Shown one piece after another: positions 28,962 to 55,125 of a DNA stretch of 55,611 nt (within the stretch, counting starts at the first letter, position 1; each line of letters begins with the position of its first letter). This stretch comes from Prevotella sp. Its GTDB lineage: Bacteria; Bacteroidota; Bacteroidia; Bacteroidales; Bacteroidaceae. Made by a program: the position numbers and the translations under genes. The stretch lies in NCBI GenBank assembly GCA_017847725.1, contig JAGAXW010000033.1, forward strand, positions 1 through 55,611, written 5' to 3'. The notes under the pieces are model-generated. The model had not been told where the DNA came from and made no database searches. It saw only the letters and a list, made by a program, of their open reading frames with translations.

Positions 28962-28972
28962 TTCCTTCTCTT

Positions 28973-29599: not shown

Positions 29600-29604
29600 C
29601 TCCT

Positions 29605-36779: not shown

Positions 36780-36806
36780 AAGTATATTTCTATTATTAAC
36801 AATCTG

Positions 36807-36851
36807 CAAAAATACTGTTTTTTACAGAAACTAACGATTTGTTAACAGTAT
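36807..36851 (-). promoter_or_regulatory. Internal promoter and inverted repeat before the ParB-like gene
   Basis: The minus strand has TATTTTTG (36,807-36,814) about 28 bp before the ParB-like start. Next to it AATACTG (36,811-36,817) and CAGTATT (36,845-36,851) form an inverted repeat. The 88-bp gap is the widest inside module B, so the ParB-Dam pair may be transcribed and regulated separately. Confidence 0.4.
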
Positions 36852-36867
36852 TTAACTCTTAGATAAT

Positions 36868-38442
36868 TTATAGCCCAAATTCTTCAGCTAACATTCCTCG
36901 TTCCTTGATGATTCTTTTTATCATCTTCTCAAAATCTGCCACGAAGGCATCCACCAAATCTTGATGGCTTTTCTTCCAGTACTTCATCATCTTGTGGGCA
37001 GTTGTTCCCCACACCTCTTTTATGCATTGACTCTGGAACCAGGCCTTCGCTTTCTCCCGGTTGCTCAACTCGTTGTAATGATAATCCCTGAAGCAGTACT
37101 GTCTGGTGTAGCCAGCGTTAATTGACTTCCAGAAGGGATCCCTATCCGACAGTCCGTTTATCCAGTCAGCAATCAGTTGTTCGGGCGACTTTGGCCCCGG
37201 CAGCAACAAAATCTTACTGACCACATGGTTGTAGTGCTCATTCTTATCCACATCACCATCCAAAATTACAAGTCCTTCTGGCGGATAAAAGCATGGGATT
37301 CTTGCCTCAATCAGGTTAATATATTCAGTACATCCCAATTTTGCTTTCACATGCTTCATCACGCCCTTGTACTTGGCTGGAACCATATTATATACAAACA
37401 ACCAACCCTCATTGTCCTCAGTATAAATGTTTATCTTTGTGTTGGGTGCTTTCTGTAATGCCACGCATAAGTCGTTTTCTATAGTGCCGTATCCCACTTG
37501 CTCTTTTATGGCTATATGGTCGTCTTCCCTCTTTAGAAACACCACATTCACCTGTCCTTTTCTTGCCCTGTTCGTCTCGCACTCCTCCTGCAACTGACAA
37601 GCTTCTTTTATCAACGTCAGCGAATGGGTTGTGAAGATAATCTGCACTTTCAGCTTGCTTGCATAAGATAACAAACTCTTCAATATCTTGATTTGTGAAG
37701 CAGGAAACAGCGTTGTGTCCAATTCGTCTATTGCCAATATCCCGCCTTTATAGTCGTGCGGATAGTTTTCCTTTAGCCGCTTAAAGGAAAACAATGCCAA
37801 TACTATCTTTCCCAGATTGTCCTGCCCGGCAGAGTTTGCTCGCCAGTCGTATGTCGGGGTATTCACGCCTATTGTTTGTTTCTCAGTACCTTCTATATAC
37901 AGAGGTTGGGCATCATCGTACACATTAAACAACACGTCATCGTGAAACTTCTTGTACTCCTTCTTCTCTGCTTCCGTCAAATCCACCTCGTGTGACTCGT
38001 CCACTTTAGCATCCTCTCCAAGTGGGAACAGTCTTCTAAGACTCAAATACAACACCGGATATTGTATGTAACCTGATCCCGCCTCGTGGGTTCCTTTCTG
38101 CCAGAAACGTATCGTTCCCTTCTTCTTATCGCGCCAAATGCTTGTTGCTGTAAAGTCTTCCATTCCTTCAAAACACAGCGTCCATTCGTGTTCGCCGGCC
38201 TTATCAAAGGATGGCGAAAATTTGAATTTATTGGAAAAGTCAGACTTGTAGTTCCCGCCTATCAGCGGTTTTTCACCGCCCATGGCCGTCTTCGGGTCAA
38301 GCGTAAACATCTGGGTAAGCATACCCAGTAGCGTGGTCTTCTGCGTACCATTTTGGCCGGCTATCACCGTGAGGTTTGTCCCTATCTTAAAGGATACGTC
38401 CCTGAATCCACGATATTTATGTATCTTGATTTCTTTTAGCAT
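36868..38442 (-). CDS. OLD-like ATPase with TOPRIM-type C-terminal nuclease domain
   Basis: A 524-residue protein. The ATPase begins IKIHKYRGFRDVSF; the P-loop is AGQNGTQKTTL at 28-38, in which Gln replaces the usual Gly before Lys. A Walker B-like segment GGILAIDELDTTLFP is near 240, followed by IIFTTHSLTLI. The C-terminal third has a TOPRIM pattern: NIYTEDNEGWLF (Glu) and LVILDGDVDKN (Asp-x-Asp). OLD-family enzymes are ATP-dependent DNA nucleases in phage P2 and in Gabija GajA. It lies 36 bp after the HEPN gene. It is the best candidate for the DNA-cutting part of module B. Confidence 0.75.
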   Translation of the reverse strand: MLKEIKIHKYRGFRDVSFKIGTNLTVIAGQNGTQKTTLLGMLTQMFTLDPKTAMGGEKPLIGGNYKSDFSNKFKFSPSFDKAGEHEWTLCFEGMEDFTATSIWRDKKKGTIRFWQKGTHEAGSGYIQYPVLYLSLRRLFPLGEDAKVDESHEVDLTEAEKKEYKKFHDDVLFNVYDDAQPLYIEGTEKQTIGVNTPTYDWRANSAGQDNLGKIVLALFSFKRLKENYPHDYKGGILAIDELDTTLFPASQIKILKSLLSYASKLKVQIIFTTHSLTLIKEACQLQEECETNRARKGQVNVVFLKREDDHIAIKEQVGYGTIENDLCVALQKAPNTKINIYTEDNEGWLFVYNMVPAKYKGVMKHVKAKLGCTEYINLIEARIPCFYPPEGLVILDGDVDKNEHYNHVVSKILLLPGPKSPEQLIADWINGLSDRDPFWKSINAGYTRQYCFRDYHYNELSNREKAKAWFQSQCIKEVWGTTAHKMMKYWKKSHQDLVDAFVADFEKMIKRIIKERGMLAEEFGL

Positions 38443-38478
38443 ATATCACAGTGTTACTCTCTCACATTTTTTCTTTCT

Positions 38479-39150
38479 CTAAGTCCTTTTATACCCCCTT
38501 CCCTCAACAAATTTCTTCGTCGTCTCAATCACGATGGGCAGAAAGGCTGTAATATCCTGCCGCATCTTGTCTAAGTCTTTATACAGATAGTTCGAACCAC
38601 ATTGCGAAAAACTCTCATTCCCGTGCGCCAGCCTGTTCCGCTTGCTTTTCACCGTAAGGAAACTGTCACCATAGTCTTCGCGCTTGTCCTCCGCTATCGA
38701 ACAGCCATGCTTCTCAAACGCCTCGTAAATCTTCCTTATATCTATGCTGCCCGAAGTATTGATGGCCAGCGCCTGAAACACAACCTTCAGCGGCATCTTC
38801 GATGCTTCATCAAGACTTCCTTCCGGCTGCTTCTTCCGCTTGCACGACTGCGTCCACATCCGTCGCATTTCGTCCGTCAGCTCCGCGTATGTCAATTCGT
38901 CGTCAGCCACATTGTCATAGATGTAGTTCAGGCACTCACATACGGTCGATTCCACCATATTGTATAGCACCACCAGCGTCTGCCCTTTCATACAGCACTG
39001 CATCTGCAAGTCCACAAACAACTCTCGCCCGCTGTTGCTATCCACGACCGGTTTTTGTTTGTGACTCTCTACGCCACTGATAAACTCAAGACAACGGAAG
39101 TGTGCATCCACGTCATCCTTCCGTTGTAAAAAATGATTGTCTAATATCAT
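38479..39150 (-). CDS. HEPN-family nuclease (MAE_28990/MAE_18760-like)
   Basis: A 223-residue protein with an N-terminal segment typical of the MAE_28990-type HEPN group (LQMQCCMKGQTLVVLYNMVE) and the catalytic R-x4-H motif in SKRNRLAHGNESF near residue 173. HEPN proteins with this motif are usually metal-independent RNases in toxin-antitoxin or abortive infection systems. The gene overlaps the DUF262 gene by 4 bp (ATGA). A DUF262 protein coupled to a HEPN RNase suggests sensor and effector. It is a likely toxic component, so the DUF262 partner may restrain it. Confidence 0.75.
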   Translation of the reverse strand: MILDNHFLQRKDDVDAHFRCLEFISGVESHKQKPVVDSNSGRELFVDLQMQCCMKGQTLVVLYNMVESTVCECLNYIYDNVADDELTYAELTDEMRRMWTQSCKRKKQPEGSLDEASKMPLKVVFQALAINTSGSIDIRKIYEAFEKHGCSIAEDKREDYGDSFLTVKSKRNRLAHGNESFSQCGSNYLYKDLDKMRQDITAFLPIVIETTKKFVEGRGYKRT

Positions 39151-40226
39151 CGCAGACAGACATCCTTTACATACTCTATACGCTGCCTGATCTTTCCCGC
39201 TGTATGCGTTCTGTATCTTCCGTCAAGCATATTGCAGAAGTCATTCCGATTTTTCTTATCCACAACTAATTCGGGATAACTCTTAGGCTCTAAATCCGGA
39301 TTATTATCCAACGCCAGCGAGACCCCTACTGCAATGGCCTCAAAATAAGGACGTGAAACACCAACAGCATTAATCTTCTTCGTAAAGCCCTGTCTTGGGT
39401 AAGCCTTTTCCATATAGTCCAGCAACTGACAGAAAACCCGTTTCATATTCGTTTTTTCCGCCTCGTCAAATGTCCTGTTCTTCTGAGCCAGGTAATTGTC
39501 AAGATAAGTGGCCACTCCCTTTGTCTCAACTGCGCTATAACTTGGATATGCCTCTCTAAAGGCAAAGAGGCGAAGTAACAGTTCTTCTTCCTCCCTTCTG
39601 TTCTCCAAATATTTGCCCACAGGACAAAGCTTCTTGAAACGTGCATCCTTAGCCAGTTCTGCCAGAAACTCCGTGAAATCGCCTCTATATACGCCACGTC
39701 TGGTCTCCATTGGGAGCAACGGCACACTGCTGGTGTTGATGCGGTCAAACATCTCATTCCTCACCTCCTCTGTCGCCTTCGACGATAGTACAATCATCCG
39801 AATGGAAATATTCTTGAACGACCGCTGCAAGGCGTTGGGCAAATCCTTATAGTAGCAGTCATTCATCAAGGTCAGTTTCTGAAGCGAACACAGCCTCAAC
39901 TCGTTGTCCATGAATGCTGCCAATGTTCTGATGCGCTGCGAGCCATCCACTATCTCCAGTCTGCCGGTTTCTTTGATTTCAGCGGAGAAGATAAAAGGAA
40001 CCGGCAAGCCTAAGAACAAACTTTCAATGAAACGTGACTGATGCTTGAAGTCCCAAATGAACTCACGTTGATAGTCGGGCACATAGAGTTCATTGTCGTC
40101 TGTCTCTATACCTTTCAAATACTTGTCTACGTAATATTCCAACGTAAACTCCCTAATATCATACGCTATTGCGCTCTGTTGCTGGTCAAGTTGTTCTTCC
40201 AGCTGTTTCTTCTTCTCTTCCGTCAT
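39147..40226 (-). CDS. DUF262 protein of module B
   Basis: A 359-residue DUF262 protein: YVPDYQREFIWDFKHQSRFI near residue 47 and LEIVDGSQRIRTLAAF near 93, where Ser replaces the first Gln of the usual DGQQR motif. RINTSSVPLLPMETRRG matches the conserved helix of the family. There is no DUF1524 nuclease domain, so it needs a partner for any cutting. The first ~20 residues are charged (KKKQLEEQLDQQQ). It is the first gene of module B and overlaps the HEPN gene by 4 bp. No convincing promoter is visible before it. Confidence 0.78.
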   Translation of the reverse strand: MTEEKKKQLEEQLDQQQSAIAYDIREFTLEYYVDKYLKGIETDDNELYVPDYQREFIWDFKHQSRFIESLFLGLPVPFIFSAEIKETGRLEIVDGSQRIRTLAAFMDNELRLCSLQKLTLMNDCYYKDLPNALQRSFKNISIRMIVLSSKATEEVRNEMFDRINTSSVPLLPMETRRGVYRGDFTEFLAELAKDARFKKLCPVGKYLENRREEEELLLRLFAFREAYPSYSAVETKGVATYLDNYLAQKNRTFDEAEKTNMKRVFCQLLDYMEKAYPRQGFTKKINAVGVSRPYFEAIAVGVSLALDNNPDLEPKSYPELVVDKKNRNDFCNMLDGRYRTHTAGKIRQRIEYVKDVCLR

Positions 40227-43079: not shown

Positions 43080-44390
43080 CTAATCCAACTTTGTTGTGAC
43101 ATAGAATTGCTGTCCAAGTTCCCTTTCAAGAAAAGCGGCAGCAGCCTCTGCTCCGATTGTTAGCAAATCCAGATTACTCGTTCTGTATTCTTTAATGCTC
43201 AATCGATATATGCCATCAGCGTAAGTATGTGATAATCCTGAATTCTGTAGGGCTTGTGTTGTTTCCGTTTGGTCATTCGTACAGACATAGGCCCACCCCC
43301 AGAACCCTTTTTGTTCATCAAAGTCTGGGTTTTGTTTTAAGAACTCAGCAACGGCATCAATAGAAACCTTTCCTGCTGCTACGACAGCATTCTTTACTTT
43401 TTCTTCCAATTCTGAGGCTACTTTAAAGGTCGGCATAACTGCCATCTGCCGAGTAGGCAAGTCTTCTATACGAATATGTTGCATATCTATATTCTGCATC
43501 TTGGCTATCGTTTCTAAAGAAACCACTCGCGTTGCAGCTATCTTATTTACATCATACTCATGCCCTAACCCCGTCGAACCTGCATCATACAGGTTCTTCA
43601 GATGCATGATAGTTTCTATTTGCTCTTCGTCTGTACCTACTATAACTATAATTTCGGAGAAGAAATCTGCATAGTTCTTACTCAAGAAGAAGGGTATACC
43701 TGGCACACCAAAATCGCCATCTGGTAAAGCCCATCGCCATTCTCTTTCGTGAGTCCAATCTATAGGATATTCTACGTAGGCATATCGTTTTTGTAATTTT
43801 GTCGCAACGTATCTGTATTGTTCATGAATGGATATTCCCGTTTTCTCCACATCCAATATTCTCCCTTGGTAAATACCTTTTGGCGTTTTCTCTGCCTCAA
43901 TATGAGCACCACTTAGTCCATAAATAACAGGACGACCACCTGCAGCAAATAACTCATTCCTTTTGAATGCAATACCGTAGTTTCCGACATAGCCAGAATA
44001 CGCGCCTCTGAATTTTGCATATTGTATTAGAGCATATAGCGGCATTTCCGTAAAACACACTGCTGTTTTAGGTCCATATATAGCTGGTGCCATGTTCCTT
44101 ACCGACCAACTGGAATGTATAAAACCATCATGCAAGATTTTCAATAACACCTCAAAGGCCGGTGCATCGGAAGCGATGTCATAATACTTTTCATCATACC
44201 CCGATAGGACATTATGTCCTTTACCTTCTGCATCGTAATAGTCAGGTAGGCGAACATCGTCATCGTACCCTTCCAGTTCTGCAATTTCCTGCAAGTCATC
44301 AAAGTTATCCTCAGGCTTACGATTATGTACAAAATGGATTACCCATTCTGAAAGGTCACTTCTATACTGTATATTCTTATTCTTCATCAT
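43080..44390 (-). CDS. AbiGi-like abortive infection protein (tentative)
   Basis: A 436-residue protein. Its central part (AVCFTEMPLYALIQYAKF near residue 110, YGIAFKRNEL, RPVIYGLSG, then THEREWRW near 215) follows the pattern of the AbiGi/DUF2971-type proteins, in which CF-D/E-PL, YGI-x-F and R-E-W are conserved; the layout also recalls ADP-ribosyltransferase folds such as DarT. The C-terminal ~120 residues (AGKVSIDAVAEFLKQNP) are separate and helical. With the 64-residue gene downstream it could be a two-gene defence or toxin-antitoxin unit. Function is inferred from resemblance only. Confidence 0.4.
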   Translation of the reverse strand: MMKNKNIQYRSDLSEWVIHFVHNRKPEDNFDDLQEIAELEGYDDDVRLPDYYDAEGKGHNVLSGYDEKYYDIASDAPAFEVLLKILHDGFIHSSWSVRNMAPAIYGPKTAVCFTEMPLYALIQYAKFRGAYSGYVGNYGIAFKRNELFAAGGRPVIYGLSGAHIEAEKTPKGIYQGRILDVEKTGISIHEQYRYVATKLQKRYAYVEYPIDWTHEREWRWALPDGDFGVPGIPFFLSKNYADFFSEIIVIVGTDEEQIETIMHLKNLYDAGSTGLGHEYDVNKIAATRVVSLETIAKMQNIDMQHIRIEDLPTRQMAVMPTFKVASELEEKVKNAVVAAGKVSIDAVAEFLKQNPDFDEQKGFWGWAYVCTNDQTETTQALQNSGLSHTYADGIYRLSIKEYRTSNLDLLTIGAEAAAAFLERELGQQFYVTTKLD

Positions 44391-44415
44391 ATCAAAACCT
44401 CATTATTAAACCACA

Positions 44416-44454
44416 AATGGCTCTCCCTTCTCGCATGAGAAGTGGAAAGCCATT
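44416..44454 (-). terminator. Strong hairpin after the last gene of module C
   Basis: AATGGCT (44,416-44,422) pairs with AGCCATT (44,448-44,454), and within it CTTCTC pairs with GAGAAG around a 4-base loop, giving a long, nearly continuous stem. It lies 45 bp past the stop codon of the HA-domain gene and probably ends the 11-gene transcript, insulating the AbiGi-like gene. Confidence 0.65.
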
Positions 44455-44498
44455 GTTATATATCCCACTAAAATGATGTATCGTGAATTCTTCATAAC

Positions 44499-44735
44499 CT
44501 AAACCCATTGGTTCTTTCTTCGATATTTCTCACACAGTGCAAGTAGCTCTATAAACCGCCCTCGTCGTTGCTCATTTAACTCACCTTGATTCATCTGCTT
44601 CCGATTATGTTTCATCCACGTATACAGCCGTTTTTCGTTCAAGTCATATTTCGATAAGTTCCTGTGGTTCTCATTTAAGAACCTCAAAACCTCTTCATAG
44701 TTAGCTTGCCACCGTTCCTCTTGCGTCATAATCAA
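44499..44735 (-). CDS. Small helicase-associated (HA)-domain-like protein, copy 2
   Basis: A 78-residue basic protein resembling one HA domain: ERWQANYEEVLRFLNENHRN, then LYTWMKHNRKQMNQGEL and CEKYRRKNQW. It is a clear relative of the gene at 25,270-25,500 and of the broken copy at 40,425-40,660. Here its start overlaps the end of the HNH nuclease gene by 4 bp (ATGA), so it is made in fixed ratio with the HNH protein. That makes it a likely functional subunit, perhaps a DNA-binding clamp or a regulator. Confidence 0.65.
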   Translation of the reverse strand: MIMTQEERWQANYEEVLRFLNENHRNLSKYDLNEKRLYTWMKHNRKQMNQGELNEQRRGRFIELLALCEKYRRKNQWV

Positions 44736-45442
44736 AGATATTCTTCAAAATTGCACTTTATCAGCAACGTATGCTGGCCTTCAGCGATTTTCTGATTCAC
44801 AAAACTCTTCACCTTGTTCTGCGCCAAAGCTTCATTGGGTGTGTTACGCGAAAGTTCAGCTAAATCTACAAATGCATTAATCTCATTATAGATTCCCCGT
44901 CGAGGCTCATCCAACTCCTTTCGATCCAAGCCATAATACTCTATCGATGCCTTACCCTCATCAGTCAGTCCACTGATATTGATACCATCAAACTTCAAGT
45001 GTTTCTCAGGCTCTCGTTCTTCGTATGGATTAATCAGAAGAGGTTCCTCCTCTGAAATATCCTTAACATCTGGATTAAACCGCTTCGCAGGGTCTTTTAA
45101 AGGAAAGTAATTATGCTTGTATATCCTGTTGCACCATTCACAGGCATACAGCATATTTTCCCACTTGTAAGCCAACCAATAATAACCTGGTTGATGCAAT
45201 TCATTATCGTTCTTATCCTGTTGCCATCCACCTTTTGGTCGGAAGTGTTCTACATCGCCAGGGCAAGAAGCTTGATAATGAGTCTCACAATAGCAACAGA
45301 TTCCATGCTGCAAACGATTCAAGGCATTCTTAACGTCAGCGTGTGCGTAAACGCTCTTTTGTACAGCATCCCCGGACGTCGGAGCTGCCTGCCCTTGCAA
45401 ATTTGCTGGTACACCCACTCTACTCCTGTCTATATACTTCAT
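44732..45442 (-). CDS. HNH endonuclease of the PtuB/TIGR02646 type
   Basis: A 236-residue HNH nuclease. GICCYCETHYQ near residue 50 gives the first Cys pair, then DVEHFRPKGG with the catalytic His, and LYACEWCNRIYKHNYFP near 100 gives the second Cys pair and the Asn/His. This arrangement is that of PtuB in Septu and of the HNH protein found with PtuA-like ATPases in Ec78-type retrons. No reverse transcriptase is present here. It overlaps the ATPase gene by 4 bp and the HA-domain gene by 4 bp. It is the predicted cutting subunit. Confidence 0.82.
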   Translation of the reverse strand: MKYIDRSRVGVPANLQGQAAPTSGDAVQKSVYAHADVKNALNRLQHGICCYCETHYQASCPGDVEHFRPKGGWQQDKNDNELHQPGYYWLAYKWENMLYACEWCNRIYKHNYFPLKDPAKRFNPDVKDISEEEPLLINPYEEREPEKHLKFDGINISGLTDEGKASIEYYGLDRKELDEPRRGIYNEINAFVDLAELSRNTPNEALAQNKVKSFVNQKIAEGQHTLLIKCNFEEYL

Positions 45443-47034
45443 AGATGCCCCTCCTTTCTCAGCTTCTCTGCCATTTGGTGTATATATACCATAGCCTCTA
45501 CGTCTGCCATTGTTTCGCCCGTTGGTAAATAGCCAAACTCATCTGCCTCTGTCCTCAAGCTATTACTGTCAACGTTTTTCTTTTCCCCGCTGACAAACGC
45601 TTTTCTACGCTTCATAAATTCATCAAGCGATGCAGGCCGCGACGATGGCAAGTCGAAATACTTGCTCATCAGCACTTGGTCTATACGCCAGTTATTAAGC
45701 ACTTCTTCCTCGTCTGTATCTATCTGTATATTCCCATCCTCATCACGTTTGAATAAAAGCAAATCTACATCCTTATTACCACGTGTGTTTGCTTGTACCA
45801 GCAGCGGACTATGGGTCGAAATAAAGAAAGCCTTACTCTTTTTATCTTCTTCAGTATTAGACAAAACCAATATATTCTTGATATAATTCCGTTGCCACAG
45901 AGGATTGATATGTGTATCTGGTTCATCCAGCAGAAAGAGCGTCTCATCTTGGCTGCTGTGAGCTAAGGCAATGAGGCCCATCACCGTTAGATATTGCTGT
46001 TCTCCTTCACTCAGTTGCAGATAGGGATAGCGTTCTCTCTCTCCTTCTTTGTGAAGAAAGATGTCAAAATCCTCTACCATTTTCAACACAAAGCACTCTT
46101 CCAATGCATTCAGGAATTCCATTGGCGTAGGGAACCTGTCGTAAAGCAGTTCCTTGAAATTATCATCTGTGGGGATGCCTTCAATTTCAAAGTATTCTCT
46201 GACCCCTTGCTTAGCAGGCATGATGCCATAGTTCCGACTATTATCGATGAAATAATATAGTAAAAATCGTAATAACTTGTCAACGACACCCCTAACACCC
46301 CAAAATATGGGGGTTTCTTCAAGATTATATCCCTGCAAAAGCATATCCCGATAGTATTCAAGCGTCAGTCCTTCCTTTCGCAGATTGGTGGTTATGGCAA
46401 TTTGGGGACTGCGAAACTTTAAATGAATTCTGTCCCAATTCTCCAAATGAACGATATCTTGCAGCACCTTCTTGATGTTTTCACCATATCGGCGGTGATC
46501 CTTATAGAGAAAAAGTGTTGTAAGCACCAACATAGAGTGTCGGTTTTCCGCAAAGAACAGCTTTCGTGGTCTATTTCCCTCCTCATTGCCCCTTGCATAC
46601 TGTATACGCTTTGACCTTTCCTCGCTTTGGATATGCTTATGCACCAACTGCCTTATTCGTTTGTTCTCGCCTGAATAATAGCCTATAATCTGGTTGGGCA
46701 GCTCTAAATCTTTTATATCTATCAGATGAATGTCTTCAGGATTGTCTGCTCTGATAGTATATTCCGAGATGTTGTGTTGCTCTGTCATTTTGGTTATCGC
46801 AAAATTCCGCCCCTTACACTCATATTCCATCTCGTAGTGAATGGATTGCGTCTCTGCACGCTTACCTTTTGTTTTCAATTGGTACAACTCATCGAATATC
46901 AAAAGCAATGCCTCCAAAAGATTCGATTTCCCCATACCGTTCTGACCGACCAATAATGTTATTTGGTCGGCATTCAGTTTTAGATTAACTGTCACGTTCT
47001 TATATACGGGGATAACCAGTCTTTTAATTTTCAT
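45439..47034 (-). CDS. PtuA-like AAA/ABC-type ATPase
   Basis: A 531-residue ATPase. Walker A is LLVGQNGMGKSNLLEAL near residue 30, the ABC-like signature is LSEGEQQYLTVMG near 350, Walker B is TLFLLDEPDTHINP near 375, followed by FFISTHSPLLV. These are the marks of PtuA-type ATPases, which pair with HNH proteins (PtuB) in Septu. It overlaps the specificity-subunit gene upstream by 4 bp and the HNH gene downstream by 4 bp. In Septu the ATPase is thought to hold the nuclease inactive until triggered. Confidence 0.8.
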   Translation of the reverse strand: MKIKRLVIPVYKNVTVNLKLNADQITLLVGQNGMGKSNLLEALLLIFDELYQLKTKGKRAETQSIHYEMEYECKGRNFAITKMTEQHNISEYTIRADNPEDIHLIDIKDLELPNQIIGYYSGENKRIRQLVHKHIQSEERSKRIQYARGNEEGNRPRKLFFAENRHSMLVLTTLFLYKDHRRYGENIKKVLQDIVHLENWDRIHLKFRSPQIAITTNLRKEGLTLEYYRDMLLQGYNLEETPIFWGVRGVVDKLLRFLLYYFIDNSRNYGIMPAKQGVREYFEIEGIPTDDNFKELLYDRFPTPMEFLNALEECFVLKMVEDFDIFLHKEGERERYPYLQLSEGEQQYLTVMGLIALAHSSQDETLFLLDEPDTHINPLWQRNYIKNILVLSNTEEDKKSKAFFISTHSPLLVQANTRGNKDVDLLLFKRDEDGNIQIDTDEEEVLNNWRIDQVLMSKYFDLPSSRPASLDEFMKRRKAFVSGEKKNVDSNSLRTEADEFGYLPTGETMADVEAMVYIHQMAEKLRKEGHL

Positions 47035-47666
47035 AGTGCTTTACTAAAAACCTGATGCAGCCAGGATTTTTTCATCATCTCCACCTGCTGTTGCAAGTTT
47101 TCACTTGCAGCTTTCAAACCTTTATTATCCAGAGCCGTGGCCAATTCTTTCAATCGCAATGCTTTCGACTTCGTTTCGTCAGCCAACGTCTCTATGCGCT
47201 GATATTTTTCAGCTATATCTCTCTGTATATCAATATCTGGAACAGGTATCAACAAATCCTTCAGATACCTCACATCCAAATGACCAACGGCTGTACCTCT
47301 TTTCCTGTTCTGAAAATCATCATAGCAGTAAGCCAGATAGCAATATAGATAGTCTAAGGAAATATCATTACTAACCTGCGACAATATAATAAATGTAGAA
47401 GCCGCAACGCCTTCCTTTCCATGAAAAACCTTACCACTGCGATGCCCATCCTTCACCATTACCAAGTCTTGTTTGCTCATGATGAAGTTAGAAGCCTCGG
47501 TATATCTGCATGGAGAAGCCGTTTCCAAAGCCTTGATATCTATATAAGGCACCGACCCATTAAAGGGGTATTCCTCCACCCTCTCTGGTCTTCTTGCAGA
47601 GCGTACCCAAACAAGTTCCGCCAGAGGAATTTCGCGTATCGATTCTTTATATACGTTGTCAACCAT
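47031..47666 (-). CDS. Half-size type I restriction specificity (HsdS-like) subunit
   Basis: A 211-residue protein with one target-recognition domain (YIDIKALETASPCRYTEAS, then DLVMVKDGHRSGKV and GTAVGHLDVRYLKDLLIPVP) and one coiled-coil arm (EKYQRIETLADETKSKAL to the end). Normal HsdS has two such units (~400 residues); half-size forms can act as homodimers that read a palindromic site. Its start overlaps the methylase-like gene by 8 bp. No HsdR gene exists in the window, so its recognition seems to serve the ATPase/HNH pair instead. Confidence 0.8.
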   Translation of the reverse strand: MVDNVYKESIREIPLAELVWVRSARRPERVEEYPFNGSVPYIDIKALETASPCRYTEASNFIMSKQDLVMVKDGHRSGKVFHGKEGVAASTFIILSQVSNDISLDYLYCYLAYCYDDFQNRKRGTAVGHLDVRYLKDLLIPVPDIDIQRDIAEKYQRIETLADETKSKALRLKELATALDNKGLKAASENLQQQVEMMKKSWLHQVFSKAL

Positions 47667-49419
47667 TGATTTCTTTCTCCATTTTCGACAATAGGCTACG
47701 GATTTCCCTTACCACCTTATTGGCTTCCGATAGGTAATACGATGGCGTTTCCATCTTCTGCTTTTCACTATCGTTGTCAACACCAAAGTTTATTTGATAA
47801 TCATCATTGCGCAATTGATCCAACGAAAGGAAATAACCTTTTTTTTCAAACACCCCGTCATGGTATGCTTTGATAAATCCATCGAAAACTGAAACGTCCT
47901 GTAACCGTTCTGGTTTCAGCTTCTCCGACTGCATATCATATATCAGCACCTTTCCGCCTTCGCTAGGCCTACATCTCAGGAAAATGGCGCACATCGAAAT
48001 GTTGGTGTTTGGATAAATACCTTTAGGCAATCGTAGTATAGCGTGATTGCTATATTGTTCGAATAAGAATTTGCGAATATGTCTATATTCCCATCCTGAT
48101 TTATACAGGAAACTCTCAGGCAGCAACATAGCCGCACGACCTTCAAACTGGTAACTGAGGGACTTCAGGATCAATTCTACAAACTCCAATTGTTTGTTCT
48201 TATAGGTCCCAGAACTTTGCTTCCCTGCCAAAGAGAACATCTGAATAGGCGGCTCACAGATAATGCCGTCATACTGCTGATAATCTACAGCCTCCAACGA
48301 ATCACCGTGCTTCACATCACACCACAGCCCGTGAAACCTTGTATTGCAGAATCCTATTCTGGCAGCTTCTCTTTGGAATTCCATGCCCGAAAGGGCTTCC
48401 GTGATTTGAAACTTTCTTTCCTCCTCTGTCAGAGTCTGATATTTGTCATTGCTGTCTCGCAGATACTTGTCTATTTCTACCAAGAAGCCTGAGAATCCTG
48501 CAGCGGGGTCATGCCAATGCTCGCCAAGTTTCGGTTGCATCACCTTCACTAATAGTTGAGCCAGCACTTTAGGAGTTGTATTTTGAAAAGCACCGCCATC
48601 TTTTGCTTTGCTGTTTTCTTGCAGCATCAGGTCAAATAGCGCAGCGATATTTTCTTGTTTGGCACATTTTGACACCACTTTAATGGCTTCGCTGAGAACG
48701 GATGCCGAGTATATGCGAGTCTGTTGTTTGGTCCGACGAATTGCTTCCTGATATAAATGCAACAGGTCATCACCTGCCGTTTGTTCCAGTTTCTTCCATC
48801 TTTCAGCTTCCTTCTCATCATAGAAAGTCATCCACCTCAGATACAGCATATTTGCCATCTCATAGAGGAATTGATAAGAGGACACGCCCGCATCAAGTAA
48901 ACCTTCACGAAGATTCCATAGGTTCCGGTACTGTACTTCAGCCATCGTGATGATTTTATGATGTACTTTCAAATCATCAGTCCCATATCGTTCTCTCAGC
49001 CAATGCTGCACTTCATGCACATATTTGAACTTCTGTTCCTCTACAAGGGCGCGCAATGTCGTACCATCCTCCTCAGTCACTCTACCCAAGGCATCCATAA
49101 AGTAAGTATAGTCTGTACTATGTACAGGAATCTCATCATCAGGTCCTATTATTGAAGCAGCTATGATAGGGTCATAGTAAACATTCCCTGCATGCTTTTT
49201 GCTGATAGGCAAAGGTAGAATCTCGCTGGCTGATACAGTTTCATTAAGTTCATTTAGCGAGACCTTACCATCCTTTTCCACCTCTGCTACCACAAAGGCG
49301 TTGTCACTGAACCATAGTTGTCCTTTCAACTCTTCAAACTTAGAATCTCCAAGTCTGACTATATCGTTTCTTTGATATTCCACCATTTCCTTTACGAACA
49401 TATTAATACTCATTTCCAA
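47659..49419 (-). CDS. HsdM-like N6-methylase with altered catalytic motif
   Basis: A 586-residue protein with the layout of type I modification subunits: an N-terminal helical domain, then GAFQNTTPKVLAQLLV (usually GEFYTP), the AdoMet loop HDPAAGFSGFLVEID near residue 310 (usually DPACGTGGFL), and GIICEPPIQMF near 390 where NPPF is expected. Glu replaces the catalytic Asn, so base methylation is unlikely. RLPKGIYPNTNISMCAIFL is still typical of HsdM. It probably serves as a scaffold for the HsdS-like subunit. It starts 26 bp after the preceding gene and overlaps the HsdS-like gene by 8 bp. Confidence 0.8.
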   Translation of the reverse strand: MEMSINMFVKEMVEYQRNDIVRLGDSKFEELKGQLWFSDNAFVVAEVEKDGKVSLNELNETVSASEILPLPISKKHAGNVYYDPIIAASIIGPDDEIPVHSTDYTYFMDALGRVTEEDGTTLRALVEEQKFKYVHEVQHWLRERYGTDDLKVHHKIITMAEVQYRNLWNLREGLLDAGVSSYQFLYEMANMLYLRWMTFYDEKEAERWKKLEQTAGDDLLHLYQEAIRRTKQQTRIYSASVLSEAIKVVSKCAKQENIAALFDLMLQENSKAKDGGAFQNTTPKVLAQLLVKVMQPKLGEHWHDPAAGFSGFLVEIDKYLRDSNDKYQTLTEEERKFQITEALSGMEFQREAARIGFCNTRFHGLWCDVKHGDSLEAVDYQQYDGIICEPPIQMFSLAGKQSSGTYKNKQLEFVELILKSLSYQFEGRAAMLLPESFLYKSGWEYRHIRKFLFEQYSNHAILRLPKGIYPNTNISMCAIFLRCRPSEGGKVLIYDMQSEKLKPERLQDVSVFDGFIKAYHDGVFEKKGYFLSLDQLRNDDYQINFGVDNDSEKQKMETPSYYLSEANKVVREIRSLLSKMEKEING

Positions 49420-49444
49420 TCAGCCAACAAACCATTGACTATGA

Positions 49445-49483
49445 ATCACACCAAATCTTTAACTCTATGTAATGTTTTCAACA
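49445..49483. repeat. 39-bp direct repeat, left copy
   Basis: An exact 39-bp match to 55,126-55,164 (it starts ATCACACCAAATC). Here it forms the last 12 codons and stop of the 328-residue gene. The two copies bracket the CBASS genes and the two nuclease-like genes. Confidence 0.9.
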
Positions 49484-50432
49484 CTTCTGCATACCTATTG
49501 AGTGTATCCACCCATCCTTCTAACGGCAGTCGCAAATCATATCCTTCATTATCATACAGATGGACAACATGTGCAGGCTGAAAATAAATATCCACCCGAA
49601 ACCTCAAAGCTTCAATCGTTCCAAGCCTTGCCAGCAATTCTATGGGTAGTCCTCCCAAATCAGGCATAATTCTTATCTCAGCCTCCTCATGCTTACAACG
49701 TTTCTGTATACTAGCCCATTTTCTATATTCGGTATTTGTAACCAATAAAGAATTTCTCATATCGGCTTCTGGATGCCTGGTTCTTACTGCCGCTAAAATG
49801 CCCTCGTCCAATATGTCATTGGGATACTCACGCTGAAGGTGAACGTTCTGTTCTTTCTCTCTCCGTTCTTCTTTATTCGCTGGCTCCTGTGAGTTCATTT
49901 TATAATCCTCTTTGAAATCCCTGAAATACACAATCTCAGCAGGAACCTGGTGTCCGTAAACATCTTGGTTTAAAACGACATGCTTAACCACTTTCACTTT
50001 GTCTACATCAAGGATTCTTATGACATGATAATACTTCCTTATTTCATCAAAAAGAAGCTTGATGTTATCTTGTGTCAAACGGTGAAATTCTATCTGTTCT
50101 TCAATATTATACTCACCCCAGTCATCCCAACCTAGAAAATGGAAGTCAAGGGCGAGTTCTGTTTCATTCAATTTCAACAAAAGCAGTGGTTTGTTGCCTA
50201 AATGATCCTGTGCTTTTGCTGAATGAATGATTTCCATATATTTCAACCATTCATCCTCTTTCAGGAACTCGTCATCAACAACCTTTACCAAACACACTGC
50301 ATTATCCACCGGCGTTTCAATGGCTATGTCATAGAGAACGCTATTGGCTTGCGTTATCTTAATCTGATCATTCATCCTCAGCAACAAAGACGCTGCCAGT
50401 TGGATTATCCTTATTTGTTTAACCTCGTTCAT
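49446..50432 (-). CDS. Uncharacterised protein linked to CBASS, nuclease-fold-like N-terminus
   Basis: A 328-residue protein of no family I recognise. Its N-terminal segment (LYDIAIETP, then CLVKVVDDE near residue 45) parallels the AFDIYVEI...LVQVKATD active-site region of the preceding gene, but key residues do not line up, so it may be a nuclease-dead relative. A charged linker near 190-205 (ANKEERREKEQ) separates the C-terminal ~110 residues (LGGLPIELLARLGTIEALRF, then YFQPAHVVHLYDNEGY). It overlaps the previous gene by 4 bp (ATGA). Its final codons are one copy of a 39-bp repeat found again just before capV. Confidence 0.5.
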   Translation of the reverse strand: MNEVKQIRIIQLAASLLLRMNDQIKITQANSVLYDIAIETPVDNAVCLVKVVDDEFLKEDEWLKYMEIIHSAKAQDHLGNKPLLLLKLNETELALDFHFLGWDDWGEYNIEEQIEFHRLTQDNIKLLFDEIRKYYHVIRILDVDKVKVVKHVVLNQDVYGHQVPAEIVYFRDFKEDYKMNSQEPANKEERREKEQNVHLQREYPNDILDEGILAAVRTRHPEADMRNSLLVTNTEYRKWASIQKRCKHEEAEIRIMPDLGGLPIELLARLGTIEALRFRVDIYFQPAHVVHLYDNEGYDLRLPLEGWVDTLNRYAEVLKTLHRVKDLV

Positions 50433-50923
50433 AATTGGCTTATAAAACTATCTTTAAAATTTGCAGTATTCAAGCTCTGCCAGTAATTCATAACATCCCT
50501 TTTTAGTAAGCGTAGAACGCCTGCTGTCGCATTCCGGTTATTCAAATCCAGAGTATGATTCACTGGAATTCCATTCCTATAGGATGTCTTCATATTAAAA
50601 GCAGGAGCCAAATACATCTTCAAATCTCTCAGGTCGAACCCTGCCACGTATGTTGGCACCAGCCTATCTATGAGCCACTTCAATTTTTCATCAGGCACAG
50701 GGGTATTGATACCATTTCGACTATATCTTTTATCCTTATCCGTTGCCTTCACTTGTACAAGGAAAGGATAAGGATGCGTTTTATCGCTAATTTCAACATA
50801 AATGTCAAACGCCTCTACAGTTTCACCTAATAATTGGACACGAAACATCTCGTCCGTCTGTAACATGACGCTTGCTAGCATTTCGCCTTGGCTTCCTATT
50901 ATTCTTGTATCATGATATCGCAT
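50429..50923 (-). CDS. DUF4365-like PD-(D/E)xK nuclease
   Basis: A 164-residue protein with a restriction-fold pattern: IIGSQGEMLASV (Glu), AFDIYVEIS (Asp) and FLVQVKATDKD (Q-x-K), as in DUF4365-type nucleases. The ATG at 50,923 was chosen; a TTG at 50,956 would add 11 residues. It lies 34 bp after cap3 and overlaps the 328-residue gene by 4 bp. Known type II CBASS operons do not normally include it, so it may be an added effector or a separate two-gene system in the same transcript. Confidence 0.55.
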   Translation of the reverse strand: MRYHDTRIIGSQGEMLASVMLQTDEMFRVQLLGETVEAFDIYVEISDKTHPYPFLVQVKATDKDKRYSRNGINTPVPDEKLKWLIDRLVPTYVAGFDLRDLKMYLAPAFNMKTSYRNGIPVNHTLDLNNRNATAGVLRLLKRDVMNYWQSLNTANFKDSFISQL

Positions 50924-50957
50924 AGTAATATAAAACGTCTGTTCTTTGATTCCCAAA

Positions 50958-51407
50958 TCATACTATTACAGGTTCAATCTCCTTAAACCTGTCACCATTA
51001 TACACGCTAATATAAATAGATTCCGTCCCAACTATTACCATAAACAAAAACGGAGCTGCGTGCGTTGCAGTTAGATAATTATTCTCAATAGACTGCATGT
51101 CAACTCCCGATGGTGTTGGATTGTTTTCAGGATGTGTATGCCACTCTCCCATGTAGGTTCTTGTTTGTTCAGATGCCTCATAATCATCTGTTAAGAACTG
51201 GTTGGCCAACTCGGCATCGCGCAGACAACCACATCGCGAATGACTCCTAACACAAGGCGGCGACAATTTACATATTCTGAAAGTGTTGTCACCGACTTTT
51301 ATTCCGGTCAACACCCCACATAGTTCGTTTCCTTCATGTTGGGCATAGTTTTTCAGCATATCCACAACCTCATCTTTTATTTCAAACTGAAACTCATCAA
51401 TATTCAC
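50958..51407 (-). CDS. cap3: CBASS Cap3-like JAB/JAMM isopeptidase
   Basis: A zinc peptidase of the JAB/MPN family that in type II CBASS removes the CD-NTase from its conjugates. The JAMM residues are present: Glu in GNELCGVLTG, HTHP in YMGEWHTHPENN, and Ser and Asp in TPSGVDMQ. The GTG at 51,407 overlaps the cap2 stop as GTGA and gives 149 residues; the open frame extends to 51,512 with an ATG at 51,500, but that would overlap cap2 by ~100 bp. Full metal site, so likely active. Confidence 0.82.
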   Translation of the reverse strand: MNIDEFQFEIKDEVVDMLKNYAQHEGNELCGVLTGIKVGDNTFRICKLSPPCVRSHSRCGCLRDAELANQFLTDDYEASEQTRTYMGEWHTHPENNPTPSGVDMQSIENNYLTATHAAPFLFMVIVGTESIYISVYNGDRFKEIEPVIV

Positions 51408-53125
51408 AAAGGCAGACTCTGCACCATGCCTTTTGACAAGCTTGACAATGAAACAAGTTCGATGTTTCTTGCAGTTGCTATATCTACGTTTCCTACCCAT
51501 CGGCGACAGCATGAATTTGAAGGTTTATCCAACAATTGGTCAATTATCGGGAATACTGCAGAAAGGAACATCGTCACATCATTGGCAGAATACAATGCGT
51601 AACTGCCATTGCATCCGACATCGCGACGTGTCAATTTCTCTCTGTTGTCATATTCTTCTCGTTTTATCAGGCAGTAATCTAAGAAGCTGTCTGCAGCCTT
51701 TCCTTTCAAGCGCCTAATTGAATCCTTATCATCAGGATTCACATATATCATTATGCCGGAAATCCCGTATGGCTCCAACCACAAAAGAAATGCAGGTTTA
51801 TCAATGTTCCCCTCATCCATCTTATCTAACAGCCACTTTTCCGACATTACATCACCCGTGCAAACAAAGATAGCACTGGCCTCATTGATCTTCTCCGTTT
51901 CAAGTTGTTGCAGATATTTACAGTATGCCACCACATTCCTATCTGGGCGATATTGCTGCAAATAGTTGGCCACTGCATGTACTTTATGCTGACCTATAGA
52001 TTCAAAGCCCAACAGATGCCTGCCAATATTATCCACAGATAGCCAGTCTCGGTCTGCCAAAGTAAACTCAGCATTGTTATAACCATTCAAGTAGTAGCAA
52101 AGATTACTGCCTATGCTACCAAGCCCTGCTATCAGGAATGATCTCTTTGTCATCATGCCTCCCGCTGTTCGTTCTGCCATTCTACGGTCATTGTAAACAG
52201 AGAGGTGTAATCTGTCTAATTTCTTATTTTTGTTTTCGAATTGGGTCAGAACGGTAAATGCTTTGAGCATCCCCTTTCTGTATCCATTCCTATTCACCTT
52301 CAATCCGTAAATATGCACTCCTCCAAGGGCATAGTCCAAACCTATAGGGAAAAGCACATACCCCGAACCATGACTGTTGATAAAACTCTTGAAAAAAACT
52401 CGGTCATCTGCTTCCGTAATACTGTCGATTAGCTGCTGACCCGTCATGCAGTAAGGAGGTGTATTCGGTATTTTCAGAGACGCAAGATATATTACTGACA
52501 ACTCTTTAGTCTCATGATTATCTTTGAAATACGCTATTGTCGGGTTGTTTTCGTCAGATGAAACCAGGAACATTGCATTTACTTCGCCGTCTTTAAAATT
52601 ACGCTTAGCATAGGCCAAACCAATCATTTCACAAGTGCTTACTGGTATCTCCCCCACAAGTGTCCAATAGTCACTCACTATAGCCTCATCTTCATAGTCT
52701 TCATTCCAGTAGTTCCTTATTTCCTGAACATATTCGTCCGTATTGTCTCGACCATAGTAATGCTCAATCCATTTTCTCGTTTTTTCTATATTGTCGCGTA
52801 TAATCCCTTCTATATTCTCTGCGTCATAGACCACATCGTCTTCGTATAGGCACAACTTACGGGTTCCTACTGAGATATGAGGCAAGTATTTGAACCGGTC
52901 GTCTAGGAGTATAACGCAGGGCATGGAATACGGGAAGTCTTTGGGGTATCGGATGTATGCTTCTACGTCTTCTGCCCTTCCAGCAACCAAAGCTGTTATC
53001 TGTATTTTCCAGATTCGAACATGGGAGTGGTTTTTCAAATTTGGAATTGAATCAACCTCCTCAATGTCGAATTCTCTCGACAATACTTTATAGCAAGCGT
53101 CCAAAGCCGCCTTAACGTCTAGCAT
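51404..53125 (-). CDS. cap2: CBASS Cap2-like E2-E1 fusion enzyme
   Basis: A 573-residue bacterial ubiquitin-transfer-like enzyme. The N-terminal E2-like domain has FPYSMPCVILLD and the catalytic Cys92 in GTRKLCLYEDD. The C-terminal E1/ThiF domain has the nucleotide loop AGLGSIGSNL near 335, DRDWLSVDNIGRHLLG, and the second catalytic Cys in DVGCNGSY near 505. Cap2 joins the C-terminus of the CD-NTase to a target and thereby primes signal synthesis. The chosen ATG overlaps the CD-NTase gene by 14 bp; an ATG 60 bp upstream is also open. Confidence 0.88.
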   Translation of the reverse strand: MLDVKAALDACYKVLSREFDIEEVDSIPNLKNHSHVRIWKIQITALVAGRAEDVEAYIRYPKDFPYSMPCVILLDDRFKYLPHISVGTRKLCLYEDDVVYDAENIEGIIRDNIEKTRKWIEHYYGRDNTDEYVQEIRNYWNEDYEDEAIVSDYWTLVGEIPVSTCEMIGLAYAKRNFKDGEVNAMFLVSSDENNPTIAYFKDNHETKELSVIYLASLKIPNTPPYCMTGQQLIDSITEADDRVFFKSFINSHGSGYVLFPIGLDYALGGVHIYGLKVNRNGYRKGMLKAFTVLTQFENKNKKLDRLHLSVYNDRRMAERTAGGMMTKRSFLIAGLGSIGSNLCYYLNGYNNAEFTLADRDWLSVDNIGRHLLGFESIGQHKVHAVANYLQQYRPDRNVVAYCKYLQQLETEKINEASAIFVCTGDVMSEKWLLDKMDEGNIDKPAFLLWLEPYGISGIMIYVNPDDKDSIRRLKGKAADSFLDYCLIKREEYDNREKLTRRDVGCNGSYALYSANDVTMFLSAVFPIIDQLLDKPSNSCCRRWVGNVDIATARNIELVSLSSLSKGMVQSLPL

Positions 53126-54101
53126 ATTGGCTGTTATCGCGTATAGTACCGGAAAATGCCTGATGTGTAGCGTCCTCATCCACATCCTTGGCCGAAGAGC
53201 AACTGAATCTATCGCCGAAATGCATTTGCCATTTCACGCAAGAATCATGCGGATTCGTTTTTTTTATTGCCAGTTCTGCATCTTTCTTAAATGCCTTCAA
53301 CTCTGATAGGAAATCATTCTTCCTTTTCTCTGAGTATGGCAAGAACAAATCCTCACCCTTTGGAAAAGTGGGGCGTAAACAATGGAAACCGTCATCTCCC
53401 GACAATTCATCATAAATGGCTGTGAGCAATTTCTGCATGGCCACATCATCGCGGTCATCAGCTTCATAGTGCCTCTCTGCAAGCATAGTCAAGATACAGC
53501 CAGTCGGCATCTTCTTATTCTTCTCAAAGCGCACATTCTCGCACCAAGCCTTCAGGTATCGTACTAAACGACGCAATTGCGGATGTTCTTCTTTGCCATT
53601 AAACCATTTGTAGAACTCTTTAGGGTCTGTGTCTATCCACCCATCTTTCTTATGAGCCAGTTTGGGGTGATCATCTCCTGTCTCACTCTTGAAATAGATG
53701 GGCAAATCCACATGATGCCCGTCAGCATAAAGCACAGTTACGCAAGGATCGTTATCCTCTTGTCCAGTTTTCGTATGACCTTCTATAGCCTCGTAGATTC
53801 TTTTATGATACTCATCTACTGAAAGACGGTCGGCTTCATCATCACTCAAGAAATACACACCGTCATCTAGGTCATAAGCGCCTGTACCATCAGTATCCCG
53901 AATCGGGTTCAGTATGGTATGCATGGCGTATGAACCTTGCATGTTAAACTTTGGCTGCACGTCATCAGGATAATTATCCTTATAGTACTTCCGTATCTTT
54001 TCTCTTATTGTTTCGCGGTTCTTTTTAAGCGTTTCTTTTTGAGTGTCCGTAACCGTGATGACATCGTTAAAAGCAATAAATTGTTCGTGGTTATTTGCCA
54101 T
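53112..54101 (-). CDS. CBASS CD-NTase (DncV-like cyclic dinucleotide synthase)
   Basis: A nucleotidyltransferase of the cGAS/DncV superfamily that makes a cyclic nucleotide signal on phage infection. The NMQGSYAMHT motif (Gly-Ser) is at 54-63, DLDDGVYF gives the metal Asp pair (77 and 79), and a third Asp is in GHHVDLPIYF near 125. About 329 residues. The start MANNHEQF was chosen, 4 bp after the capV stop; an ATG 24 bp upstream overlaps capV. The C-terminal end (SGTIRDNSQYARR) is the segment that Cap2 would conjugate. Clade and signal identity cannot be fixed here. Confidence 0.87.
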   Translation of the reverse strand: MANNHEQFIAFNDVITVTDTQKETLKKNRETIREKIRKYYKDNYPDDVQPKFNMQGSYAMHTILNPIRDTDGTGAYDLDDGVYFLSDDEADRLSVDEYHKRIYEAIEGHTKTGQEDNDPCVTVLYADGHHVDLPIYFKSETGDDHPKLAHKKDGWIDTDPKEFYKWFNGKEEHPQLRRLVRYLKAWCENVRFEKNKKMPTGCILTMLAERHYEADDRDDVAMQKLLTAIYDELSGDDGFHCLRPTFPKGEDLFLPYSEKRKNDFLSELKAFKKDAELAIKKTNPHDSCVKWQMHFGDRFSCSSAKDVDEDATHQAFSGTIRDNSQYARR

Positions 54102-54105
54102 AACT

Positions 54106-55125
54106 TTATATTTTTGAGGGGTCAATAGTTTTCTTTTCCGTATATAAATTCTTCACTATAGGGTCATTCTTAGCTATATTGCCCACTACCGACCCTATAC
54201 CTTTCAATATCGATAGCGATGCTTTACTTGCATTGTCCATCGTCACTTTCTTTGCTTGAATACAAGATATAGGATTGTTCTCTATTCTCTTAATCTCTAT
54301 TTCGAAATCAAGATGTGGCAAAATTTGCTTAATAAAGAAATCATTCGATTTACTTTGTCCTTCACCATAATCATCAAACAGAGTTGAAATCCATCGCATG
54401 AACGACCGTCTCTTCCGTTTTGCATAGTCACCTTTTGGCACCACACAACTGCTAATGGATAATATCTGTACTCCGTCAAAATCATCATCACCTCTTTCTT
54501 CTTTTGGTTTAATCCAATATCCATTGAACACGGCTTCTGTAATGCCCACGAGCACAGGATTGTTAGCATAAAGGCCACCGTCCACATATTGAACGCTGTC
54601 TATTTCTTGCACGGGGAAATAAGTTGGTGCTGCTGAGGTTGCAAGTGCCACTTCCACAAATGTTTTCTCATCATCCTGGTTCAAGTGTCTGTAATCCTTC
54701 TTGAATATTCTTGGTGATGAAGTGGTTATATTATAGGCTGGTATGCATAGCAGGTTTTGACTCGAACCAATTATCTTCGTTCCAAACACTGCCTCCAAGG
54801 CTTTCTTGAGTGACTTATCAGAATACTTCGATCTGACTATTGCCTGTTTCAAGGTAAACAACCACTCGCCCAGTTTCCCAATCTTCCATCTCTGAGTAAA
54901 TATTTTAGGGCCGTTGTCGAAATAGAACTGAACAACGTCCTTCATTGGAATACCAGCAGCCACACCAAGTGCTATTATACCGCCAGTTGAGGTACCACAA
55001 ACCAAATCAAAATGCTCTGATGTTGAGGATTTAAAAGCATCTTCAAACTCTGCTAAAACCTGAGCAGAGTAAACGCCTTTAATGCCTCCCCCATCGATGC
55101 ACAATATCTTAAACGGCTTTTTCAT
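54106..55125 (-). CDS. capV: CBASS CapV-like patatin phospholipase effector
   Basis: A patatin-fold lipase that, when bound by the cyclic nucleotide, degrades membrane phospholipid and kills the infected cell. The anion hole is CIDGGGIKGVYS at 9-20, the nucleophile Ser46 is in VCGTSTGGI, and the dyad Asp182 is in VDGGLYANNP. The 339-residue length fits CapV. It is the first gene of the operon. The 39-bp repeat ends directly at its start codon, which suggests that the sequence before it was replaced; no clear promoter is visible upstream. Confidence 0.9.
   Translation of the reverse strand: MKKPFKILCIDGGGIKGVYSAQVLAEFEDAFKSSTSEHFDLVCGTSTGGIIALGVAAGIPMKDVVQFYFDNGPKIFTQRWKIGKLGEWLFTLKQAIVRSKYSDKSLKKALEAVFGTKIIGSSQNLLCIPAYNITTSSPRIFKKDYRHLNQDDEKTFVEVALATSAAPTYFPVQEIDSVQYVDGGLYANNPVLVGITEAVFNGYWIKPKEERGDDDFDGVQILSISSCVVPKGDYAKRKRRSFMRWISTLFDDYGEGQSKSNDFFIKQILPHLDFEIEIKRIENNPISCIQAKKVTMDNASKASLSILKGIGSVVGNIAKNDPIVKNLYTEKKTIDPSKI

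Follow-up and report, generated by a model that had tools for sequence, protein, structure and literature searches.

We studied a minus-strand operon on a 55,611-nucleotide stretch of DNA (contig JAGAXW010000033.1 of assembly GCA_017847725.1; hereafter, the window) from a Prevotella sp., a gut bacterium, in which genes resembling hsdM and hsdS of a type I restriction-modification (RM) enzyme are joined to genes for a PtuA-like ATPase and a PtuB-like HNH nuclease, the pair that forms the Septu defence system. The operon begins with M, an HsdM-like putative pseudo-methyltransferase (47659–49419; 586 amino acids from a TTG start, or 584 from an alternative in-frame ATG at 49413; N6_Mtase, 94.9 bits), which is followed by S, a half-length HsdS (47031–47666; 211 amino acids; Methylase_S, 45.8 bits, in a single stretch), by the PtuA-like ABC-type ATPase (45439–47034; 531 amino acids; PADLOC model PDLC00293, 248.5 bits) and by the PtuB-like HNH nuclease (44732–45442; 236 amino acids; PADLOC model PDLC00339, 223.9 bits). 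The last gene codes for a small HA-domain-like protein (HA; 44499–44735; 78 amino acids from a TTG start; PF03457, 25.4 bits, short of the cut-off of 28.4). Overlaps between successive genes are 8 bp for M/S and 4 bp each for S/PtuA, PtuA/PtuB and PtuB/HA; an in-frame ATG lies six bases inside the HA gene, and its use would abolish the overlap with PtuB. Beyond the 3' end of HA, at about 44416–44454 on the same strand, lies a hairpin with a 17-pair stem. The 106-nucleotide stretch containing it has a folding energy of −30.6 kcal/mol, compared to a mean of −19.2 kcal/mol in shuffles (z = −3.78; 0 of 200 shuffles as good). The hairpin is not among the entries of a terminator scan; it is the probable end of the operon. 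A preliminary description of this DNA had reported five overlapping minus-strand genes ending at a strong hairpin, and both features were confirmed.

A scan of genome contigs from 84,980 species, sensitive to close relatives only, gave 27 pattern matches, and a relative of the operon was encoded at three loci (L016, L017 and L018), all in Bacteroidales assemblies. The order M-S-PtuA-PtuB is kept at all three, with identities to the window (M/S/PtuA/PtuB) of 90/86/93/90% for L016, 68/65/64/60% for L017 and 61/53/61/63% for L018. The clade is rare: at an E-value of 1e-40 the M alignment matched its own genome alone among 399 of the family. Scans of viral contigs with the PtuA and M alignments returned 78 and 69 stretches, none of which was confirmed, and phage records gave no match. 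The ratio of nonsynonymous to synonymous substitution rates (dN/dS) between the window and L016 was 0.107 for M, 0.244 for S, 0.099 for PtuA and 0.128 for PtuB, pointing to purifying selection on all four genes, and the value for M indicates that this gene is maintained rather than decaying. The HA gene was found by BLAST in full in the window and in L017 (whose copy scores 28.6 bits with PF03457), as a 30-residue match in L016, and without any match in L018; it was therefore rejected as a constant component, and the unit is M-S-PtuA-PtuB with HA as a variable extra. Of the five-gene order proposed in the preliminary description, the first four genes were thus recovered in other genomes. A second small HA-domain-like gene in the window (25270–25500, minus strand; 23.8 bits, below the cut-off) is 53% identical to the HA of L017 and adjoins another defence cluster; genes of this type may repeatedly occupy the last position of defence operons.

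The ATPase also has more distant relatives with M and S at their side. Fifteen plasmid records matched the window PtuA, seven with M and S beside the ATPase (H1–H5, H12 and H15) and eight without, and the five top-ranked matches were all M/S-linked. Among 394 other genomes in one sample of the window's phylum there were 3 with a match (2 linked), and among 392 in a sample of its order there were 8 (5 linked); these searches scored at most three candidates per genome, so misses are possible. The 14 linked loci outside the close clade come from the window's phylum, Gammaproteobacteria, Alphaproteobacteria and Bacillota; a PtuB-like partner is present in 11 of them, and a different kind of gene takes the fourth place in L023, L024 and L043 (in L021 the gene at this place was unannotated, and its limits were set by us). 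In an ATPase tree of 30 rows, 18 linked and 12 unlinked, the linkage label changed twice, compared to 9.7 times in shuffles (0 of 500 as low), and a single clade of linked ATPases was not rejected (p = 0.335). The rows of this tree were gathered by similarity to the window protein and hence form a non-neutral sample, several unlinked rows are long-branched, and L046, with an M-like gene 3.3 kb away and no S match, was scored as unlinked. Chance linkage was rejected on the count of label changes, and linkage to M/S appears to follow the ATPase lineage. The recurrence of M and S beside this lineage in 14 distant loci indicates that M/S, ATPase and HNH nuclease have long been linked, in an arrangement that resembles that of PrrC within a type I locus. 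Since the order is conserved in all three close relatives and the linkage tracks the ATPase lineage, M/S and PtuAB very likely work together; the functional union suggested by the preliminary description is upheld in this respect, and what finds no support is its assumption of an ordinary HsdM/HsdS.

No HsdR was found in the window by tblastn with two HsdR sequences, as the preliminary description had stated, and HSDR_N (PF04313) had 0 matches in the window's own genome, which is 80.6% complete and may still encode an HsdR of a different type or one in its missing fraction. HsdR is present in 4 of the 14 distant linked loci (L024, L025, L043 and L048), and the nearest M/S-linked relative of the clade, L025, is a complete HsdR-M-S-PtuA-PtuB locus. 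The order in L043 is HsdR-S-ATPase-X-M, and in L048 an Abi-family gene lies in between. At L025:3686–16136, AAA_5 and McrBC-family genes come after HsdR-M-S-PtuA-PtuB, placing several kinds of restriction effector in one co-directional row. HsdR was not seen in the other 10 distant loci by the same tblastn search, with short flanks in L020, L041 and L042 and with other HsdR types able to escape it. L026 has SusC/SusD-like genes on one side and an AraC-type regulator on the other, indicating that M-S-PtuA-PtuB can be a free-standing unit.

The M proteins of the four close copies, i.e., the window and its three relatives, have lost the signature of a methyltransferase. In all four, motif IV reads EPP[I/M/L] (EPPI in the window) in place of NPPF, motif I carries F or Y where others have T or S (DPAAGFSGF in the window), and the GQYFTP-like stretch reads QNxTP (QNTTP in the window). 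By comparison, all 12 of the distant M/S-linked M proteins that were examined, a set that leaves out L042 (M cut by the contig end) and L048, retain NPPF. So do 9 of 10 HsdM-like proteins from related genomes; in the remaining one (L009) our search pattern did not match any motif IV. Where a type I M protein would have NPP[FYW] and a normal motif I, the window thus has EPPI and GFSG. The N and F of motif IV are required for catalysis, and no gamma-type adenine methyltransferase that carries EPP[IML] is known to us to be active. M is thus predicted to be unable to methylate, and M/S as an ordinary methylating unit was rejected on the loss of these motifs. Other residues have been kept: D302, G306, G309 and E345 are invariant in the four copies, and E345 aligns with a glutamate of EcoKI HsdM, the best sequence match of M among solved structures (2y7c, 6.6e-37). 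The four proteins also have 151–161 residues before the shared core (about 155 extra), compared to 2–8 in the 12 distant M proteins. The coding part of this extension (48934–49413, minus strand) precedes the core; its 160 residues, searched alone, had no Pfam match and no plasmid match at an E-value of 0.1, and matched their own genome alone among 247 of the order. Branch lengths of the clade and its sister L025 were 2.88 and 0.31 for M, 1.35 and 0.69 for PtuA, and 0.97 and 2.09 for PtuB. The clade branch is therefore about nine times as long as that of the sister in the case of M, about twice as long in that of PtuA and only half as long in that of PtuB (in whose tree L025 is flagged as a long row), and the long M branch together with the low dN/dS suggests that M was remodelled and then held.

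S has changed as well. Its length is 211–212 amino acids in the four close copies and 459–594 in the 14 other linked loci; the window protein has one Methylase_S recognition domain, whereas two recognition stretches were confirmed by Pfam in S of L020 and L025. Half-S proteins are able to work as pairs. Within the close clade (6 pairs), S identity was 53–86% where M identity was 61–90%. In contrast, in five other listed pairs with M at 56–84%, S reached only 28–47%, the list covering pairs with PtuA identity of at least 38%. The recognition part of S (residues 1–145, a boundary set by us) was at least as conserved as the remainder in 6 of 6 clade pairs, and the recognition specificity of S seems to be frozen. 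With M degenerate at its catalytic motifs and S an apparently fixed half, the HsdM/HsdS of the preliminary description can no longer be taken as an ordinary recognition unit.

The effector pair, on the other hand, looks intact at its motifs. Walker A, the SEGEQQ signature, Walker B (LLDEPD) and THS of PtuA are invariant or nearly so in five sequences, and H66, F67–K70, W94, N96, N105 and K109 of PtuB are invariant in seven, with H66 and N105 as the expected catalytic His and Asn. Among solved structures PtuA is closer to 9n69 (an unnamed AAA ATPase), the retron Ec83 ATPase and AriA than to the Septu PtuA 8ee4, which it matches at only 2.4e-4, a point against membership in Septu. The structure model of PtuA has a mean predicted local distance difference test (pLDDT) score of 67.9. 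PtuB falls below the NCBIfam cut-offs, with 41.9 of 150 bits for NF041761 and 33.3 of 52.15 bits for TIGR02646. PtuAB effectors of retron-Eco7 and of one Septu system are reported to cleave tRNA-Tyr (PMC11555353, PMC13096335).

The operon sits within a run of defence genes, on DNA whose GC content is 0.54–0.64 in blocks before 25,000 and 0.41–0.47 after. Directly upstream of M and co-directional with it, 26 bp before its TTG, is orf328 (49446–50432, minus strand), which has no family match and is present solely in its own genome among 251; it is preceded by a DUF4365-like gene (50429–50956, minus strand; PF14280, 20.0 bits against a cut-off of 24.3), and operon membership is unsure for both. 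Before these, at 50958–55125 (minus strand), lies a type II cyclic-oligonucleotide-based anti-phage signalling system (CBASS) with genes for a patatin-like phospholipase, a cGAMP-synthase-like CD-NTase, and E1-E2 and JAB proteins, so that CBASS, the DUF4365-like gene, orf328 and M succeed each other on one strand. Neither orf328, the DUF4365-like gene nor the window CBASS genes had a BLAST match in the available L016–L018 stretches, and CBASS was rejected as part of the unit on this basis, with only 1.3 kb (L016) and 1.6 kb (L017) upstream of M covered. The slot before M differs by copy: it holds orf328 in the window, a 350-amino acid gene in L016 and L017, and an rdrB-like gene in L018. The 350-amino acid gene, just before M and without a family (L016:263–1321 and L017:589–1635), is 77% alike in its two copies and shows a PD-(D/E)XK-like signature by eye. 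Divergent rdrA/rdrB-like pairs, of the kind found in RADAR (restriction by an adenosine deaminase acting on RNA), adjoin M-S-PtuAB on opposite sides in L018 (4773–10020) and L017 (6712–11606) and are 26–28% alike; the rdrB-like gene of L018 overlaps M by 8 bp, and the genes of L017 lie downstream. The cassette may move as the tail of diverse defence operons. Elsewhere in the window, a type IIG-like enzyme, a 208-amino acid gene without a family, a GmrSD_N protein and an SMC/MAD3-like ATPase are clustered at 25876–32589; a PD-Lambda-5-like pair (A model 462 bits, B model 411 bits) lies at 34504–36809; and GmrSD_N (NsnA-like), HEPN-domain and AAA ATPase genes stand in tandem at 36868–40226, all on the minus strand. 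On the plus strand, a 1602-amino acid protein (11368–16176) combines a DEAD-type helicase half with a UvrD-like helicase half.

We then compared the operon with known systems. Like Septu (PADLOC type I), it encodes an ABC-type ATPase next to an HNH nuclease, both carry the expected motifs, and the PADLOC PtuA and PtuB models are their best matches; Septu, however, consists of two genes, whereas in all four close copies M and a half-S come before the pair within one operon, so that it is not a self-contained two-gene system, and the window ATPase belongs to an M/S-linked lineage. In retron type I-A (Septu type II) PtuAB likewise stands under a separate module, there a reverse transcriptase, published under the name PtuC (PMC8565338); in the window operon M/S occupies its place, and no reverse transcriptase family was detected among the neighbouring proteins scanned (Pfam, 43080–53185; PADLOC, 43080–54125). 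Type I systems with PrrC or RloC, such as EcoprrI, resemble the present loci in encoding an ATPase-nuclease effector within an HsdM-HsdS locus: the effector gene lies inside the M/S locus here too, and it does so together with HsdR in L024, L025, L043 and L048. PrrC is reported to be activated upon inhibition of EcoprrI (PMC12707154). The window differs in that its effector is PtuAB and not PrrC, and HsdR and the methylation signature are gone. From type I RM itself, with which it shares an M closest, among solved structures, to EcoKI HsdM and an S with a Methylase_S domain, the window locus is set apart by the lack of a detected HsdR, the lack of NPPF and the half S. Matches to MADS (methylation-associated defence system) were weak (ATPase–MAD3, 33.8 of 420 bits; S–MAD5, 23.0 of 400; M–MAD2, 26.8 of 720), and no other Mad model was among the matches listed for the operon proteins, which speaks against a MADS locus.

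The best NCBIfam match of the window ATPase is TIGR04435, at 113.5 bits and under the cut-off of 300. The TIGR04435 loci of Priestia (L023) and Sphingobium (L024) also hold M, S, an AAA ATPase and a further gene together, but this fourth gene is not PtuB-like by BLAST and lies apart in the tree. The NCBI name of the family, 'restriction system-associated AAA family ATPase', indicates that an M/S-associated ATPase had already been noticed. The PADLOC search for Septu-associated genes gave the reverse transcriptase and a separate Hma system and not M/S, as far as the consulted part of that report goes (PMC8565338), and no named system of this make-up was found in the open-licence literature. Within that literature, the M/S-PtuAB set is a noticed but unnamed arrangement, of which the pseudo-methyltransferase clade is a new variant; the preliminary description, too, knew no name for the combination, and the association as such had been noticed before.

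Three features call for a joint account: an effector with intact motifs, a lost methylation signature, and a recognition that is kept but seems frozen. Tentatively, and ahead of the other readings, we favour a retired type I enzyme that serves as a fixed-target sensor or decoy and controls PtuAB, because L025 couples PtuAB to a complete type I locus and PrrC provides a precedent for a held nuclease. The ancestor was probably a type I restriction locus into which PtuAB was built as a suicide or guard effector, much as PrrC is in EcoprrI; in the clade HsdR, one half of HsdS and the methyltransferase signature would have been lost, and M would have acquired its new N-terminal part. The dead M and half-S could still form a complex of one fixed specificity that binds DNA, a DNA mimic or a cofactor, and as a sensor this complex would keep PtuA and PtuB latent. 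Phage DNA or a phage anti-restriction factor would alter the complex, upon which PtuA would let the HNH domain of PtuB cut tRNA or DNA, and infection would be stopped. A restriction system without self-marking is unlikely to keep a site-reading S, barring a special arrangement, whereas in a sensor binding would be expected to be kept and chemistry dropped. More specifically, the type I complex, devoid of cutting and methylating, might have been kept as bait or fixed sensor, a decoy restriction enzyme, which we regard as rather doubtful; if so, phage DNA mimics, S-adenosylmethionine (AdoMet) hydrolases or one DNA feature would trigger the linked PtuAB, making the locus a bacterial integrated decoy. 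Several observations weigh against the sensor or decoy proposal. The EPP clade comprises four sequences on one branch, so the dead M, the half S, the N-terminal extension and the missing HsdR may be a single event rather than independent correlations, and since HsdR was not seen in 10 of 14 distant linked loci it need not be ancestral. M of L025 also deviates in motif I (GTFG, at the next position over), and motif I alone is therefore not decisive; AlphaFold gave only a low-quality model of M (mean pLDDT 40), which was not used, so the case for lost activity is made from motifs. Of the three trees, only that of PtuA has a star on the node that joins the clade to L025 (99/99; M, 87/93; PtuB, 85/88, with L025 a long row), and the ATPase is nearer to TIGR04435 than to the retron PtuA NF041760 (33.3 bits, cut-off 500), both matches being sub-threshold.

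The explanation ranked second, which we hold to be unlikely, is site-directed restriction, in which M/S would bring PtuAB to a fixed phage DNA sequence for PtuB to cut, the host having no such site or having it masked by another enzyme. The purifying selection on S and its conserved recognition part agree with this, and the many loci without a detected HsdR, together with the free-standing L026, suggest that PtuAB could replace HsdR; yet HsdR accompanies the ATPase and its partner in four distant loci, which makes PtuAB more than a simple replacement, there is no obvious self-protection without methylation, and the fast divergence of S in the other linked loci contrasts with a frozen specificity. 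Less probable still is that M as a pseudo-enzyme binds AdoMet, or reads DNA modification through its N-terminal part, and reports to PtuAB. The invariance of D302, G306, G309 and E345 while motif IV and GQYFTP residues were lost, the alignment of E345 with the EcoKI glutamate and the added N-terminal part are in line with such a role, but the bulky F/Y for T/S in motif I may block AdoMet and the model of M is of low confidence. That PtuAB is plain Septu next to an inert M/S, as two independent modules, seems slightly more improbable again: 12 unlinked ATPases of the same kind are in the tree, 11 with a B-like partner, but the linked ATPases form one or nearly one clade, and the same order and overlaps come with similar identity across all four genes. 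We give least credence, and very little, to an active M with an unusual catalytic motif in an HsdR-less RM variant; although M is under purifying selection, all four copies have other residues in place of the motif IV N and F and of the aromatic residue in GQYFTP, and EPP[IML] is not known to us from any active enzyme of the gamma type.

The retired type I enzyme would offer a natural case of a restriction enzyme that seems to keep assembly and target reading with its chemistry lost, and, if this reading is true, the holding and release of RM-linked suicide effectors such as PrrC would become testable in a stripped-down system with no background restriction or methylation. Judging from the single protein models run here, tools that rely on PtuA and PtuB alone would probably class these loci as plain Septu with an orphan type I methyltransferase next to it. 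The operon also presents PtuAB-like pairs as effectors that can be combined with different modules, be it a retron reverse transcriptase, a type I M/S or no module at all.

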